From Pedobacter frigidisoli (lineage in GTDB: Bacteria > Bacteroidota > Bacteroidia > Sphingobacteriales > Sphingobacteriaceae), in contig NZ_SJSN01000004.1 of the NCBI RefSeq assembly GCF_004331675.1, forward strand, positions 64,255 to 128,254: a stretch of 64,000 nucleotides of DNA, written 5' to 3'. How positions within the stretch are numbered: position 1 is the first letter of the stretch; the number at the start of each line of letters is the position of its first letter. Positions 2,929 through 60,249 of this stretch are shown piece after piece. A program made the translations under genes and the position numbers. Under the pieces are notes generated by a model. It searched no databases, was not told the origin of the DNA, and saw nothing but the letters and a program-made list of their open reading frames with translations.

Positions 2929-6524
<3,596 letters not shown>

Positions 6525-18353: not shown

Positions 18354-18356
18354 AGG

Positions 18357-18405
18357 TTTAGGGTTTAGGGTTTAGGGTTTAGGGTTTAGGGTTTAGGGTT
18401 TAGGG
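18357..18405. repeat. seven perfect TTTAGGG heptamers (CCCTAAA on the coding strand)
   Basis: Seven exact copies of TTTAGGG in tandem (49 bp), starting 3 bp upstream of the VOC gene's ATG. The sequence equals the plant-type telomere unit but lies in ordinary bacterial context between two bacterial genes. It occupies the place of the ribosome-binding site and leader of the VOC gene. Slippage in 7-bp steps could alter expression; that is inference. Confidence 0.97.
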
Positions 18406-19591: not shown

Positions 19592-20050
19592 ATGTTCAAA
19601 CCAACCCCGTTAAATCTTCCGCCATATCCTTTTAAAATTACCCAAAAAGATGATGTGGTTTTTATTTTCGATGAGTTGAGGAAAAAGCATTTGGTGCTCA
19701 CACCTGAAGAATGGGTTCGGCAGCATTTTATTCAGAATCTAATTTTAGCAAAGAAGTTTCCAAAAACCCTAATTCAAATTGAGGGTGGTTTGATTTTAAA
19801 TCAATTACAAAAACGGAGCGATATCTTGGTATACAATAATGCTGGCGAAAAGCTGATGCTAATTGAATGCAAAGCCCCAAAAGTTAAGATCACTCCGTCT
19901 GTTTTTGAACAGGCATCTCGATATAATTCTATACACCAAGCGAAATGGATTGTGCTTACCAATGGCTTACAACACGTTTACGCTAAAATGGATCTGGAAA
20001 AAGGGAGTTTTGTTTTTAGGGAGGAAATGCCATTGTATTTGGATTTATAA
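19592..20050 (+). CDS. type I restriction HsdR N-terminal-domain-like protein
   Basis: A 152-aa single-domain protein related to the nuclease N-terminus of HsdR. The PD-(D/E)xK-like core is visible: RSDILVYNNAGEKLMLIECKAPK, giving D, E and K in order. Such free-standing copies are widespread in Bacteroidota, usually without HsdM/HsdS, and none is near here; the function is unknown and may be housekeeping rather than defence. The 3' end is duplicated downstream as a decayed fossil (20296-20396), but the gene itself is intact with a stop at 20048-20050. Confidence 0.88.
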   Translation: MFKPTPLNLPPYPFKITQKDDVVFIFDELRKKHLVLTPEEWVRQHFIQNLILAKKFPKTLIQIEGGLILNQLQKRSDILVYNNAGEKLMLIECKAPKVKITPSVFEQASRYNSIHQAKWIVLTNGLQHVYAKMDLEKGSFVFREEMPLYLDL

Positions 20051-20945
20051 ATTTTGGAAAGCAATTACAGTATTTGATAGCTTAGTGTAGTCCCGCTCTT
20101 TGTTCTTTCCGGTGAAAAACCGGAACCACGCCGATCGGGTTTAGGTGGCGCAGCAAGAAATGCTATTTTGGGTTGCAAACTGCAAAACAAGAATATTAAT
20201 TATTTGAGCTTTGACAACTTTAGTAGTGACATAGAAAAAAGTTGTCAAAGCTGTTAAATACTAAACATCATACGGTTTCATCCAATATTGATTATGAACA
20301 GGCATCTTGATACAATTCCATGCACCAAGCGAAATGGATTTGGAAAAAGGCAGTTTTATTTTTAGGGAGGAAATGCCGAATTATTTGGATTTATAAGTTT
20401 TTGGAAAGCAATTGCAGTGGTCGATAGCTCTGTTTAGTCCCGCTCTTTGTTCTTTCCGGTGAAAAACCGGAACCACTCCGATCGGGTTTGGGTGTCGCAG
20501 CAAGCAATGCTATTTGGGGTTGCCAACTGCAGAAAAAATATTGAGATAGAAATAATGCACTGTTTCAGTTCGTGAGGACAAGAACCAAAGTGCAAGCATT
20601 TTTTTTACATTTTTTTATCCATCATGTTTGGAAAACTTCAATAGTTGCACAGTCTTGCCCACCTAAACCTGATTGGAATGGAAATCTTTTTTGGTAGCTG
20701 TTCCGAGGAGCTTAATCTACCATAAACAAAAAAATTGCAGAGTAAAGCAGGAACAAAGTAACCTAAATGTGTTGCCAAATGCTTTCCAAAAAAAAAATGA
20801 GCTTTGACAAATTACTAGTGACATAGAAAAAATTTGTTAAAGCTGTTGAACACTACACATCACCAGCGTTGAAACTAGCGAAATAAAAAATTTGTCAAAA
20901 CTGATGAATACTAAACATCATACGATTTCTTCCAATATTGATTAT
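19907..20945. repeat. decayed tandem duplication of two convergent gene ends plus their spacer
   Basis: Unit 1 (about 19907-20295) runs from the 3' end of the HsdR-N-like gene through the spacer into a fossil of the 3' end of the Gfo/Idh gene (20260-20295, 34 of 36 bases equal to the true end at 20910-20945). Unit 2 starts at 20296 with a second HsdR-N 3' end, followed by its own spacer and the true Gfo/Idh end. In unit 2 a 43-bp piece is missing exactly between two AAATGGAT copies (19943-19950 and 19986-19993 in unit 1). The spacer of both units holds a dispersed repeat (20055-20145 and 20400-20500). Confidence 0.9.
20207..20252. terminator. long perfect hairpin between convergent genes; related copies at 20800-20844 and 20890-20905
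   Basis: AGCTTTGACAACTT (20207-20220) and AAGTTGTCAAAGCT (20239-20252) are exact complements around an 18-nt loop. A second copy at 20800-20844 has arms AGCTTTGACAAATT and AATTTGTTAAAGCT with one G-U pair, and a partial arm lies near 20890. Their place between converging genes suggests a bidirectional terminator; the copies exist because the whole spacer was duplicated. Confidence 0.65.
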
Positions 20946-22104
20946 TACCAGAATAAATGGCCTCGTTGCACATGGCAACACATATTGCAGCTTGGGTACC
21001 CGTATTAATATTTGATGCTGGCTCTTGATTTAACGTTATCGATTTATAAAATTCATCCAAGGCATAATTGGTTCCATCGAGCGTAGCTTTATCCAAAATT
21101 GGGATTCCACCATCTTTATTTACCACGATTTTTGTGGCTCCAGAAACTCCATCAACAATGCCTAAATCCTTTTTAGCGCTTTCTTCCGGATAGAAAAGTC
21201 CGGTGTTGGTTAAAAGCGAAACCGAACCTTTTGTGCCTTTAATTTTAAACAAATAACCATCATGTGCGTTGCCACAAGTTGCACCGAAATTGCCAATCAT
21301 GCCTTTTTCTTTATAACGAAGCACGGCCTGAATGTTATCATAAGTTTCGCGACCATCCTTAAAAATATCAATCCCTCCTGCACCCATAATTTCATCGGGT
21401 TGGGTTTGGAAAGCCCAATTAATGAAGTCGATTTGATGCGATAAAAGTTCGGCAGCTAATCCACCTGAATATTCCTTATACATTCGCCAGTTAATTTTTC
21501 TCTCCAAGGATGGATCTGAAACATTCCTACGCCAGTTTCCATTTCTATCCCAGCGGCAATCGATTTGAGAAACCTTGCCCAAATAACCGCTCTGAATCAT
21601 ATCCTTAACCTTGAAATAAAGTGGCGAATATCGGTATTGATAACCCACCTGAAAAACCTGTTTCGGATAATTTTTAACTAATTTTTTCAGTTCTAAGGCT
21701 TGAGCAATGTTGTATGTCATCGTTTTTTCAACGTAAACATGTTTTCCAGCTAAAACTGCATCTTTAGCGATTTTGAAATGTTCGCTCAAAGGCGTAGCAA
21801 TAAAAACAGCATCAATCAATTTATTATCTAAAATTTGATGATAATCTTTAACCGCTTTTGCATCGACTGGGACGTATTTTTCAGCTTCCTTTAATCGGAA
21901 ATCGAGTAAATCGCAATAGGCTACAGTTTTGTATTTTGCTGGCATGGATTTAATAACCGACAAAACACCTTTGCCTCTATCTCCACAACCAATCATGGCA
22001 ACATTTATAACCTGATCGGAATATAAACTTGCAATAACCTGATTACCAACCAAAAGACCTGAGCTTAACAAAGCTGATTTCTTAACAAAAGACCTACGAT
22101 GCAT
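20911..22104 (-). CDS. exported Gfo/Idh/MocA-family oxidoreductase
   Basis: NAD(P)-linked sugar dehydrogenase family protein, 397 aa. The N-terminus MHRRSFVKKSALLSSGLLVG looks like a twin-arginine export signal, so the enzyme is likely folded with cofactor and moved to the periplasm. The Rossmann fold begins NVAMIGCGDRGKG; EKTMTYN is the place of the family's EKP motif, with Thr-Met instead of Pro. Its ATG overlaps the stop of the upstream DUF1080 gene (TAATG), indicating translational coupling. With the second Gfo/Idh gene it brackets a DUF1080 protein, an arrangement fitting 3-keto-sugar chemistry. The substrate is unknown. Confidence 0.9.
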   Translation of the reverse strand: MHRRSFVKKSALLSSGLLVGNQVIASLYSDQVINVAMIGCGDRGKGVLSVIKSMPAKYKTVAYCDLLDFRLKEAEKYVPVDAKAVKDYHQILDNKLIDAVFIATPLSEHFKIAKDAVLAGKHVYVEKTMTYNIAQALELKKLVKNYPKQVFQVGYQYRYSPLYFKVKDMIQSGYLGKVSQIDCRWDRNGNWRRNVSDPSLERKINWRMYKEYSGGLAAELLSHQIDFINWAFQTQPDEIMGAGGIDIFKDGRETYDNIQAVLRYKEKGMIGNFGATCGNAHDGYLFKIKGTKGSVSLLTNTGLFYPEESAKKDLGIVDGVSGATKIVVNKDGGIPILDKATLDGTNYALDEFYKSITLNQEPASNINTGTQAAICVAMCNEAIYSGNNQYWKKSYDV

Positions 22105-28283: not shown

Positions 28284-28798
28284 GAAAAATTGTTATAAAA
28301 GCCCAAAAATAGCTAAATAAGCTGAAAGACTAAAGTGCAAAGCTAAAAGTTTGGTGCAATAAAATTCCTCTCTCCCAGAGGAGTGCCTGCTAGGCGAGGT
28401 GTTTCGTTTATTTTTGAAAAGCAAGTTCAGTATTTCATTTTAAAGTCAGTCCTGCTTTTTGTTCCAATCTTTTTGTGAATGGCAGTTGAGGCTGTTGAAT
28501 TGCTGCATCAAAAAGTATTTCCACTTCAATCAGGTTTAAAAAACTTAAGTCTATTGCGCTTTTGATTGTCCTGCTTATTCAGATTGCATATTTTGGCTGA
28601 AGCCAACTAATCCAACCTGCATACAGGCAGCTAAAGCAGCCTTCAATGAAATGCAGTACACAACGCAAGTTGCAATCTTACATGCTTTCAATTTCATTGC
28701 CGTTGGTTTCAACCAACGGATAAAAATGATTAAGAAATGTAATCGGTTAGTTTATAGAAAGTTAGATATAAAACAGCCGTCACTGACGAAGAAATGGC
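28284..28798. repeat. intergenic repeat cluster upstream of valS
   Basis: Three pieces are visible. At 28360-28405 is an AATTCCTCTC...GAGTGCCTGCTAGGCGAGGTG element like those at 39808 and 40220. At 28416-28540 is a plus-oriented copy of the dispersed element (GAAAAGCAAGTTCAGTA, then GTCCTGC, CAATCTTTTTG, AAAAAGTATTTCCAC, ATCAGGTTTA). At 28690-28722 is the hairpin CCGTTGGTTTCAACCAACGG preceded by TTCATTG. No gene is supported. Confidence 0.7.
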
Positions 28799-29251
28799 TT
28801 AATCCAAATCTTCAAAAACATCATCCAATAAAAGCTCAAACCCTGGCAAAACCGATGATGCAATTTTTTCGCTTAAAGTAAATATTTTCGATGGCTGAAA
28901 TTTACCTAACTCATTTAGGGTGTAAATTAAAATACTTTGGTCGCTTTGGCTAACCACCCAGTATTCATTAACACCGAACTCTTCGTAAACCTGATATTTA
29001 TTCAGCAACTCCTTTATATTATTTCCAGGAGATAAAATTTCTACAACAATATCCGGAGCGCCAATACAACCTCTATCATCGAGCTTATTTTTATCGCAGA
29101 TTACACAAATATCGGGTTGGAGAATGGTGATGGCGTCTTTCTTTTCAAAATAAACATCGAACGGCCCAACAATTACTTTTGCCGTCTTACCTTTTAGATA
29201 ATTAGCAATTTGAATGAAAATATTACCGAGCACTTCTTGGTGTGATAGCAA
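28799..29251 (-). CDS. Uma2-family endonuclease-like protein, start codon lost or atypical
   Basis: PD-(D/E)xK-type Uma2 (DUF820) protein. Visible core: QPDICVICDKNKL, then APDIVVEILSPGN and the ELLNKYQVYEEFGVNEYWVV segment. The first usable start is a TTG at 29251, which gives 150 aa and leaves out the conserved N-terminus. The frame stays open to 29392 and codes the expected family start (KSLKYSYEDYYSWKF, RVELINGQIF), but contains no ATG, GTG or TTG there. An ATT at 29375-29377, followed by LELKDLD, sits where the family's Met would be. So the gene is either started at ATT or recently disabled. A second Uma2 gene is at 45932. The biological role of the family is unknown. Confidence 0.7.
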   Translation of the reverse strand: MLSHQEVLGNIFIQIANYLKGKTAKVIVGPFDVYFEKKDAITILQPDICVICDKNKLDDRGCIGAPDIVVEILSPGNNIKELLNKYQVYEEFGVNEYWVVSQSDQSILIYTLNELGKFQPSKIFTLSEKIASSVLPGFELLLDDVFEDLD

Positions 29252-31576: not shown

Positions 31577-31860
31577 TTTTTTATTTGAAAAGCAATTTCA
31601 GATACTTTTCGGTTTCTTTCTTCCCGCCATCGCTGCAAATCCTCAGCCAAAGAAAAATTGGCTTCCGGGTTTTACGCTTTGTCGGGTTTAGGTGGCAAAA
31701 ATAGTAGTACTATCAAACGTAAATAAACCCGACAGTAGCGAAAATACTTTTTGGTTTCGTACTTCGACGGGCTCAGCATGGCAATCACAAAAAAGATTGC
31801 AGCGTATGGCGGGACTACAAAATCCGATGAAATACCGAACGCCCTTTTCCAAATCCTGTA
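31577..31860. repeat. inverted pair of the dispersed element (imperfect palindrome)
   Basis: Plus copy: about 31577-31692 (GAAAAGCAATTTCAG, TTCCCGCCATCGCTGCAA, TTGTCGGGTTTAGGTGG). Minus copy: about 31722-31857 (AAACCCGACAGTAGCGAAAATAC, then AAGATTGCAGCG, ATGGCGGGACTAC, CCTTTTCCAAATC). The CGGGTTTA ends face each other over 30 bp. It lies in the divergent gap between the P-type ATPase and the M13 peptidase, so it may carry or separate their promoters. Confidence 0.85.
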
Positions 31861-39446: not shown

Positions 39447-40533
39447 AACGATAAATTTTATAAAAGCTTGGTTGCTTTTGTGGGTTGATTAAATTTTCAA
39501 ACAAATGTGTATTTACTCTCCTAATGAGAATTCAAAAAAATATGTTCTAAAATTTTGCTTAACCTTATACCAAAGGGATTTTTGATAAGGTTTCGTTGAG
39601 GAACTAAATCTTATTGGCAGTTTTGGATTGCCTTTATCTTACATAAATATAAGTTTTTGTTTTGAGATATGCAAGGGGTCTTGCATCCGTTGACTGAAGT
39701 CAACGGCAATGAAATGCAACTAAGCTAAATCTATCGCTATCAAATTCATTGCCGTCCTGCATCAGCAGACGGATTCGAAAATTTGTTTCCCTCTTATCTT
39801 TCTAGGCGGTAGAATTCCTCTTTTGAGGGCTGTCTGAAAGACGGGGTGGTTTGTCTTTGCCAGACAGGCTTTCCACTTTTTCTTGATAAAAAGTGGAGCA
39901 AAAATCAAGGCTTGCACCTGATTTTGGAAAAATTCGTCAAACCGTGTTTGAAAATAATTTGAGGTCTCTGCCTTTGCGCTATAAACCTAATACACAGACT
40001 GCAAATTCTTTTGTGCAGTGGATTTTGAAAGGATTTGCAAACGGTTTCAACGCTTTTTCCTAAAATCATTTGCTATGCCGTATCCGTTGTTCGGAAAATT
40101 TGTGGTGTTGTGAAAGTTTGCTTAAAGCATCCGCCATAAAAACACATCTCATTTTTCAGTGACTTCTGTATTTCCGTGGCAAATCTTTTGAAATTTTGCT
40201 TTCCCTCATTGTTTTTTAAGGCGGTAGAATTCCCCTCTTGAGGGGTGCCTGAAAGGCGGGGTGGTTTATTTGCAATTAATATCAAACTGACGTAACCAAG
40301 CACCACAAACCTTTGTAATCCAAACCTGATTGACGTGGAAACCAAAAGCTTTTTCTGCTTTTGTTGCAACAGAAAGCAGGACTAACATTAATAAAGGAAC
40401 TGCTATTGCTTTCCAAAATACTAAAATCTTTTAATAACGTTTCGACAAGCTCAACGTGACAGTATCGATAAAATAACAAGGAAAAAAAAGTCCCGAATTG
40501 CTTCGAGACTGTTCCTATTTGGTTAATGATATT
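39447..40533. repeat. 1.1-kb gene-free stretch filled with repeats
   Basis: Contents from left: the hairpin CCGTTGACTGAAGTCAACGG with CAATGAA beside it (39688-39715); GCGGTAGAATTCCTCTTTTG...CTGAAAGACGGGGTGG at 39806-39852 and again at 40222-40266; a minus-oriented copy of the dispersed element at 40318-40428 (CAAACCTGATTGACG, CAGGACTAAC, TTGCTTTCCAAAA); and CGTTTCGACAAGCTCAACGTGACA near 40438-40461. No reading frame here is supported as a gene. Confidence 0.75.
40482..40510 (-). terminator. terminator of the desulfurase gene (GTCCCGA stem)
   Basis: On the minus strand AGTCTCGAA and TTCGGGACT form a 9-bp stem with one G-U pair and a 4-nt loop, followed by eight T's. It lies 24 bp past the stop codon, a strong rho-independent terminator for the glmM-desulfurase transcript. 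Confidence 0.9.
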
Positions 40534-43239: not shown

Positions 43240-43750
43240 TTTTTTTGAAAAGCAATTGTTGTGATGCTTCGGTTAAAGCAGTCCCGCCATTCATTACAAT
43301 CTTTTTCAAACCTCTGTCATTCTGAGGCACGAAGACCTGCGAGGCAAGCATGAATTCCTATAAAAAAAATAAGCTAAAATGAATAATCTGTTTCATCGTT
43401 TGCAGATGCTTCGTGCCTCAGCATGACAGTATATTCAGGGTTGCTGCAATAAAAAAGTATTTCCATTACTGTCGGGTTTGGAGGAATCAAGATTGTGAGT
43501 GAAAACTAATAACTGCTGCCGTCATTGCGAGGCACGAAGCAATCTTACTACTTGAACTTTATCTTTCCGTTTAACCCATAGCTTTAAGATTGCTTCGTGC
43601 CCCGCAACGACGATTGGTCCAATACAAACCTTTGTTTCTAAACCTGACAACAGCGGCAGCCCCGAGTTTTTCCACGAGGGCTACAGCGAATGGCAGGGCT
43701 GTACTCCCCAATGAAAAACTGAACGTTGATTTCCAAAACAAAATCATTTT
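43240..43750. repeat. repeat cluster: inverted pair of the dispersed element interrupted by GTCATTGCGAGGCACG hairpins
   Basis: A plus copy of the dispersed element starts at 43246 (GAAAAGCAATTG, GTCCCGCCATTCATTACAAT) and resumes at 43440 (GGTTGCTGCAATAAAAAAG, ACTGTCGGGTTTGG, 43478). Between the halves is a hairpin with arms at 43316-43335 and 43409-43427. A second hairpin (arms 43521-43547 and 43585-43611) follows, then the minus copy at about 43640-43738 (CTAAACCTGACAAC to TGATTTCCAAAAC). The first hairpin appears inserted into the element. Confidence 0.8.
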
Positions 43751-52561: not shown

Positions 52562-53126
52562 ATGAACGTTCGGCTAACCTGCTGCAAAATTAAAATAAAA
52601 AACCGTTATTACACCTATTTAACTAAACTATAACAAAAATTAAATGTAGCAGTGAATATTAAAGGAATTGGCTTTAATAATTTGAAAATCAGTTGCAGCT
52701 CATTTCGGTTAGGGCAGTCCCGCCATTTACTACAATCTTTTTGTTAACTTTTTTGGTTTTTGGGCATTTTTTCCACAAAAAGTATTTTCGTTATTGTCGG
52801 GTTTATTTAACTTAGGCTTATGGTGCTTGGCAACACCAGGCGAGGGTGAAATTAGCAAATTACCTTGCAAAGGTTTGCTTTGCATTTAAATTTAGGCTAT
52901 TCTAAAACCCAACTAAAAATTACAATTTTTGGTTAAATAAACCCGATGGTACGGAAAGCTCCCGATATTTCATCGGGATTTGGAGGTACAGCGGGACTAT
53001 GGCAATCGATGAAAAACCGGAGCCTGTTTTTCGAAATAGCTTAAAAGTGTCATTATCTATTAAACCTTAATAACTTGGTTTCCATTTTGCCAAATGAAAT
53101 AACAAATTTGACTAAATTTGCAAGGC
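52562..53126. repeat. inverted pair of the dispersed element in a divergent gap
   Basis: Plus copy about 52688-52815 (CAGTTGCAGCTCATTTCGG, GTCCCGCCATTTACTACAA, AAAAAGTATTTTCG, TTGTCGGGTTTATTTAA). Minus copy about 52933-53010 (TTAAATAAACCCGATGG, then CAGCGGGACTATGG). Between them is a different AT-rich spacer. CTCCCGATATTTCATCGGGA makes an inner hairpin at 52951-52970. A TAAATTTG -7-like box (53113-53120) lies just before the ABC transporter ATG, which would give a very short or no leader. Confidence 0.8.
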
Positions 53127-55370: not shown

Positions 55371-55424
55371 GTAAACAGAAATTTTGCGCACTGCTAGGTT
55401 TAGGAAAGCACCTAATTTATTTCT

Positions 55425-55556
55425 TAAACCCGATAGCAATGTAAAGCCCGGATTCCGTTGCAGCACCAATCGGCCTACAAAAAAACACTGACGGATACGG
55501 CTTGGAATGCATAGCGGGACTAACGTTAAGATGAGTACTGCATCTGCTTTCCAAAT
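55425..55556 (-). repeat. minus-oriented copy of the dispersed element
   Basis: Starts AAACCCGATAGC, continues AGCGGGACTAACG and ends GCTTTCCAAAT, the reverse complement of the element's conserved ends and middle. It lies between convergent DUF3276 and DUF5362 genes. The core differs from all other copies. Confidence 0.8.
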
Positions 55557-59610: not shown

Positions 59611-60249
59611 AAACAATTTAATTAATTTATTACATGCCTAAACCTCTATTAACGGTTCGCAAAGGTGCATTTTTATTTTTTAAAAAGCCAATTATAGCGT
59701 TAACAGCACGTTAATTTTAGGTAAAGCAAGTGCAGCAATCCTTCGGTTTTCTCAGCCCCTCTTTCCGCTATATCTTTTTCGTTGAAAAACTCAAAAGTAT
59801 GTCGCTACAATAGGGTTTATTTAACTTAGGCTTTTCTCCCTTTTAATACTCCAGCTAGCAAAATGGTTAAGCTATTTTGTAACAGATTTTTCAGTTAAAA
59901 TCCCACAAACATTCATACGCAATTACTCATTGTAACTCAGCAGGTTTTTATATTTATTCATCGCATTCTTTTTACGCAGAATATTAGGTCTAACTATATA
60001 GATCAGCATTGTTAACTTTTGCGATTTTCAGCGCTTATGGCGCTTCATTGCCCATTATATTAAGGCTATACACGAATGTATTAGCACGTAACTCATTTAA
60101 TACATCGCTAATAGAAAGACAATAATATATAAATAATTATTTTCGAAGAGCCGATATAAATCCTTTACGATTTATCTGGCATGGCATACAATACCATTTT
60201 TCTCAAACTAAATAACTGGTTACATGTTGTATTATCTAGAATTTAGTTT
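59611..60249. repeat. divergent gap with a copy of the dispersed element
   Basis: A plus-oriented, decayed copy lies at about 59720-59835 (GTAAAGCAAGTGCAGCAA, CTTCGGTTTTCTCAGCCCC, CTATATCTTTTTCG, CAATAGGGTTTATTTAACTT). Its last part, GGGTTTATTTAACTTAGGCTT, equals the end of the copy at 52800. The remainder, 59840-60249, has no recognised gene; it must carry the promoters of mgtE and of the receiver gene. Confidence 0.65.

Follow-up and report, generated by a model that had tools for sequence, protein, structure and literature searches.

The window, the whole 64,000-nucleotide stretch of Pedobacter frigidisoli DNA analysed here, carries a tandem duplication in which the facing 3′ ends of two convergent genes were copied together with the spacer between them. 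The second copy lacks 43 bp lying exactly between two short direct repeats, and both duplication and deletion are also present in Pedobacter fastidiosus, in a spacer that has diverged little. For the whole account, comprising duplication, deletion and homologous recombination of a ~1-kb tract between species, we estimate a probability of roughly 0.6 over plain descent. Events of this kind are ordinary and known; the little-diverged scar common to a second species is the part deserving follow-up.

Tandem duplication of two convergent gene ends

The left-hand gene of the pair is intact and encodes a 152 aa protein with an HsdR_N_2 domain (19592–20050, + strand; Pfam PF13588, E = 3.8e-34); a search of 41 genomes gave a match in every one. 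Convergent to it lies an intact Gfo/Idh/MocA-family gene (20911–22104, − strand; Pfam PF01408, PF22725 and PF02894). Sequence and repeat comparison delimits two units between and within these genes, both read on the + strand. Unit 1 (19907–20295, 389 bp) opens with the last 144 bp of the HsdR_N gene (19907–20050, + strand) and closes with a fossil 3′ end of the Gfo/Idh gene (20256–20295, − strand). Unit 2 (20296–20945, 650 bp) opens with a fossil 3′ end of the HsdR_N gene (20296–20396, + strand), a broken second HsdR_N match that is 43 bp shorter, and its right edge is formed by the last 35 bp of the intact Gfo/Idh gene (20911–20945, − strand). Both units start in the HsdR_N coding end and finish in the Gfo/Idh coding end, the outer gene ends being the true ends and the inner ones fossils. 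No function is indicated for the duplicated copy, whose fossils either have a broken reading frame (in the HsdR_N fossil, the first stop, TGA, is the fifth codon of the copied stretch) or have no start codon.

Units 1 and 2 are direct, head-to-tail copies of one local segment, 88–90% identical in cleanly aligned blocks. Their local alignment score is 298, whereas the highest of 200 dinucleotide shuffles scored 33, so the similarity is not due to chance. The junction at 20295/20296 reads ...CCAATATTGATTAT|GAACAGG..., and its parental sequences are TTTTT|GAACAGG on the left and ATTAT|TACCAG on the right. Because these share only one T, the breakpoint is fixed to within 1 bp. The preliminary description, which had proposed a tandem duplication of the two gene ends, with a fossil Gfo/Idh end joined to a fossil HsdR-N end at this position, is borne out in both respects.

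It had also suggested looking for the single-copy ancestor in related genomes. The homologue search covered 146 genomes of the genus, and loci were fetched from part of them. Among the fetched loci, 31 other congeners have the gene pair in convergent, single-copy form with both ends present, separated by spacers of 10–1004 bp, and none of the relatives examined has unit 2 only. A repeat of the gene ends was sought in the 31 congener spacers and not found, though several contain internal repeats.

Differences between the units and the elements they carry

The net length difference between the units is 261 bp. One component is the 43-bp deletion. Unit 1 holds two direct repeats of AAATGGAT, 43 bp apart (19943–19950 and 19986–19993, + strand), which bound the segment absent from unit 2; there, a single AAATGGAT remains (20332–20339, + strand), so that exactly one repeat and the intervening DNA have gone, as the preliminary description had it. 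In P. fastidiosus the second repeat reads AAATGGATT, and the direct repeat was therefore probably 9 bp long when the deletion occurred. Another difference is a block of approximately 200–250 bp that is present in unit 2 of both species and lacks a counterpart in unit 1 (20538–20797, + strand, edges approximate). Finally, unit 2 contains a 58-bp insertion (20830–20887, edges ambiguous) with a second, diverged right palindrome arm, absent both from unit 1 and from P. fastidiosus. By eye it is only ~80% alike to the adjacent palindrome arm; its source was looked for and not found.

A Flavo-1-like element lies on the − strand in both units, at 20085–20146 in unit 1 (Rfam RF01705, 29.2 bits, E = 0.0017) and at 20432–20493 in unit 2 (32.1 bits, E = 0.00027). 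Both score below the gathering threshold of the RF01705 covariance model, 42 bits, and are termed Flavo-1-like here, whereas the element at 20661–20758 (+ strand, 51.3 bits), included in full in the unit-2-only block, exceeds it. Each unit also has a palindrome, AGCTTTGACAACTTT-N16-AAAGTTGTCAAAGCT, spanning 46 bp in unit 1 (20207–20252) and found with a few changes in unit 2; this is a dispersed element with ~12 copies in the genome. One congener (G007) has a 185-bp spacer with one such palindrome in the same place, beside the Gfo/Idh stop codon, and the palindrome therefore probably predates the duplication. The paired elements, the full Flavo-1 and the 58-bp insertion are additions to the preliminary description. 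Its wider claim, that the locus shows how extra spacer and repeats accumulate in this genome, holds at the locus itself, where the Flavo-1-like element and the palindrome were doubled, and for the genome rests on one case. The locus provides an ordered example of convergent spacer growth in which both elements were multiplied by the copying of their surroundings.

Flavo-1 is a high-copy dispersed element, with at least 81 matches across this genome. Further examples in the window lie at 28444–28541, 31721–31820, 40318–40387, 43276–43483, 52712–52808, 52935–53002, 55422–55525 and 59750–59822. Among the congeners searched, nine have 15–83 matches and six others none or two. The family is listed in PMC2864571, and in the Flavobacterium psychrophilum transcriptome Flavo-1 hits occur in both orientations, often outside the studied transcribed regions (PMC9723704). 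Flavo-1 has no established function.

Several separate observations concern repeats. A copy of the TTTGACAA palindrome lies within a Flavo-1 loop elsewhere in the genome (L003 1501–1547, in the Flavo-1 match G000:C59:196654–196778). The corresponding convergent spacer of another congener (G011) has a 218-bp direct repeat of 92% identity with two Flavo-1 elements on the + strand (L012 2060–2149 and 2568–2658), a separate internal duplication that spared the gene ends. The window also contains a perfect 7-bp tandem repeat, GGTTTAG x 7.3 (18355–18405), which lies in the spacer before a DNA polymerase III delta-like gene and may vary in length. We considered whether the two opposite-orientation Flavo-1 elements form one composite mobile element with common ends TTTTGGAAAGCAATT and AAATGCTTTCCAAAA. 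This idea has little support, since the motifs at the ends are scattered and most of them occur singly: four contigs yielded three left–right pairs within 600 bp, two of which are the present locus, once in each of two species.

Comparison with P. fastidiosus and the order of events

One genome, P. fastidiosus CCM 8938 (G058, locus L042), matches nearly the whole region. Both units are present there, as are the 43-bp deletion and the 200–250-bp unit difference with its unit-2 block, whereas the 58 bp are absent. Unit 1 is 90.8% identical between the species and unit 2 92.5%, compared with 85–86% between units within a genome, all these figures including a misaligned stretch; in cleanly aligned columns about four sites favour the split between units against one for a split between species. 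When genome contigs were scanned for the deletion-junction pattern, it was found in P. fastidiosus and in two metagenome bins of other phyla, the latter probably by chance. We found no report of this locus in the literature. Elsewhere in P. fastidiosus, the ORF at 28799–29251 of the window has two adjacent matches (G058:C5:85979–86304 and 86757–87081), and their proximity suggests a gene duplication in that species.

Because P. fastidiosus shares the duplication, the deletion and the unit difference and lacks the 58 bp, the order of events can be read from the alignments. Duplication came first, the 43-bp deletion and the 200–250-bp difference (in either order relative to each other) preceded the separation of the two loci, and the 58-bp insertion followed. 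The preliminary description had seen two events in a readable order; duplication followed by deletion stands, within a longer history in which at least four events can be read with the help of P. fastidiosus.

Mechanistically, a segment comprising the HsdR_N gene end, the convergent spacer and the Gfo/Idh gene end was copied in tandem in an ancestor. With only 1 bp of homology at the join, template switching or illegitimate joining appears likelier than RecA recombination. Copying in tandem left both outer ends intact and made the two inner ends fossils from birth. Unit 2 then lost 43 bp by slippage between the 8–9-bp direct repeats, and the units came to differ by the Flavo-1 block, either lost from unit 1 or gained by unit 2. 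In some congeners this spacer has two Flavo-1-related pieces, the first on the minus and the second on the plus strand, a weak hint that the unit 2 arrangement may be the older and the block lost from unit 1. The locus was afterwards present in two lineages, this Pedobacter and P. fastidiosus, with the 58 bp gained by unit 2 last and in this genome alone.

Interspecies exchange or slow descent

Between the two species, the spacer is 91.7–92.5% identical over 799 bp, fossils included, compared with ~48% identity at 3654 fourfold sites in flanking genes of the window. Ranked by matches over length, the locus is seventh of 56 spacers of at least 100 bp, all controls being drawn from contig C34. 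Only one spacer of similar length exceeds 92%, and it contains a tRNA cluster; the others that are longer than 300 bp and free of tRNA genes reach 75–92%, mostly with much unaligned sequence. The low divergence extends beyond both stop codons into the gene ends. In the last 21 codons of the Gfo/Idh gene, 2 of 19 informative codons differ synonymously, compared with 42% elsewhere in the gene (P = 0.004), and in the last 36 codons of the HsdR_N gene 5 of 32 do so, compared with 36% elsewhere (P = 0.011). In the intact unit 1 copy of P. fastidiosus, which spans 346 columns, 3 of ~8 private changes fall within the first 15 (P = 0.004), the pattern that a tract beginning there would give. These statistics involve few sites, and the tests were chosen after inspection of the data. 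We favour as the simplest account an exchanged tract of about 1 kb, at ~19.93–20.97 kb, possibly passed from this lineage to that of P. fastidiosus.

Vertical inheritance of the duplication and deletion in both species is the main alternative, to which we assign a substantial though smaller chance. The spacer would then have evolved slowly through selected sequence, namely Flavo-1, hairpins and terminators for the two convergent genes. Flavo-1 is indeed a structured-RNA family, and where the intergenic DNA of the two genomes can be aligned, its conservation generally exceeds that of fourfold sites. A 221-bp convergent spacer on the same contig (G000:C34:196372–196592; L109 16372–16592) is moreover equally conserved (94.5%), yet the gene ends beside it show no sign of a tract; some Pedobacter spacers thus evolve slowly, which weighs against transfer. 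Rfam and tRNA searches of that spacer returned no match, and it is perhaps an undescribed RNA or small gene. A further difficulty for the exchange account is that the 58-bp insertion, at ~80% by eye, is more diverged than would be expected of a duplication that arose after the two loci had separated. Against slow descent, conservation is fairly even across the locus and extends to both fossils, the frame-broken HsdR_N end at 90% and the Gfo/Idh end at 85%, and the spacer of congeners varies freely in length and content, which does not suggest constraint.

On the exchange reading, we propose tentatively, at somewhat less than even odds, that a duplicated non-coding spacer with its fossil ends moved between two Pedobacter species as a ~1-kb recombination tract whose boundaries lie inside the two conserved convergent genes, with conserved gene ends thus serving as landing sites for the exchange of repeat-rich spacers. 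If the tract was transferred, spacer scars could not be relied on as simple markers of vertical descent across species of the genus.

We rejected the possibility that the units were inserted separately or came from different donors. Dispersed repeats with further copies elsewhere in the genome are abundant in the spacer, but both units run from the local HsdR_N end to the local Gfo/Idh end, which dispersed repeats cannot carry together; elsewhere in the genome matches are no wider than the repeat parts, and each unit is matched by the other and by its counterpart in the sister species rather than by other donors, making this origin very improbable. Least credible is an assembly artefact, since although repeats can mislead short-read assembly, the copies differ by 10–15% and the same structure recurs in a separately assembled species.

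The region resembles known systems in three respects. It contains three matches to Flavo-1 RNA, a family dispersed through this genome, one of them above the gathering score; it differs in that two of the three fall below that score and that one became multiplied here when the DNA around it was duplicated in tandem. Deletions between short direct repeats by replication slippage are a known type of event, and the removal of 43 bp with one of two 8–9-bp repeats shows no notable difference from them. Known bacterial genome rearrangements likewise include short tandem duplications whose junctions have little or no homology. The present one shares with them its direct copies, 1-bp breakpoint homology and intact flanking genes, which remained so because only their ends were copied; it differs in that both edges lie in the 3′ ends of convergent genes and that the copy persists in two species.
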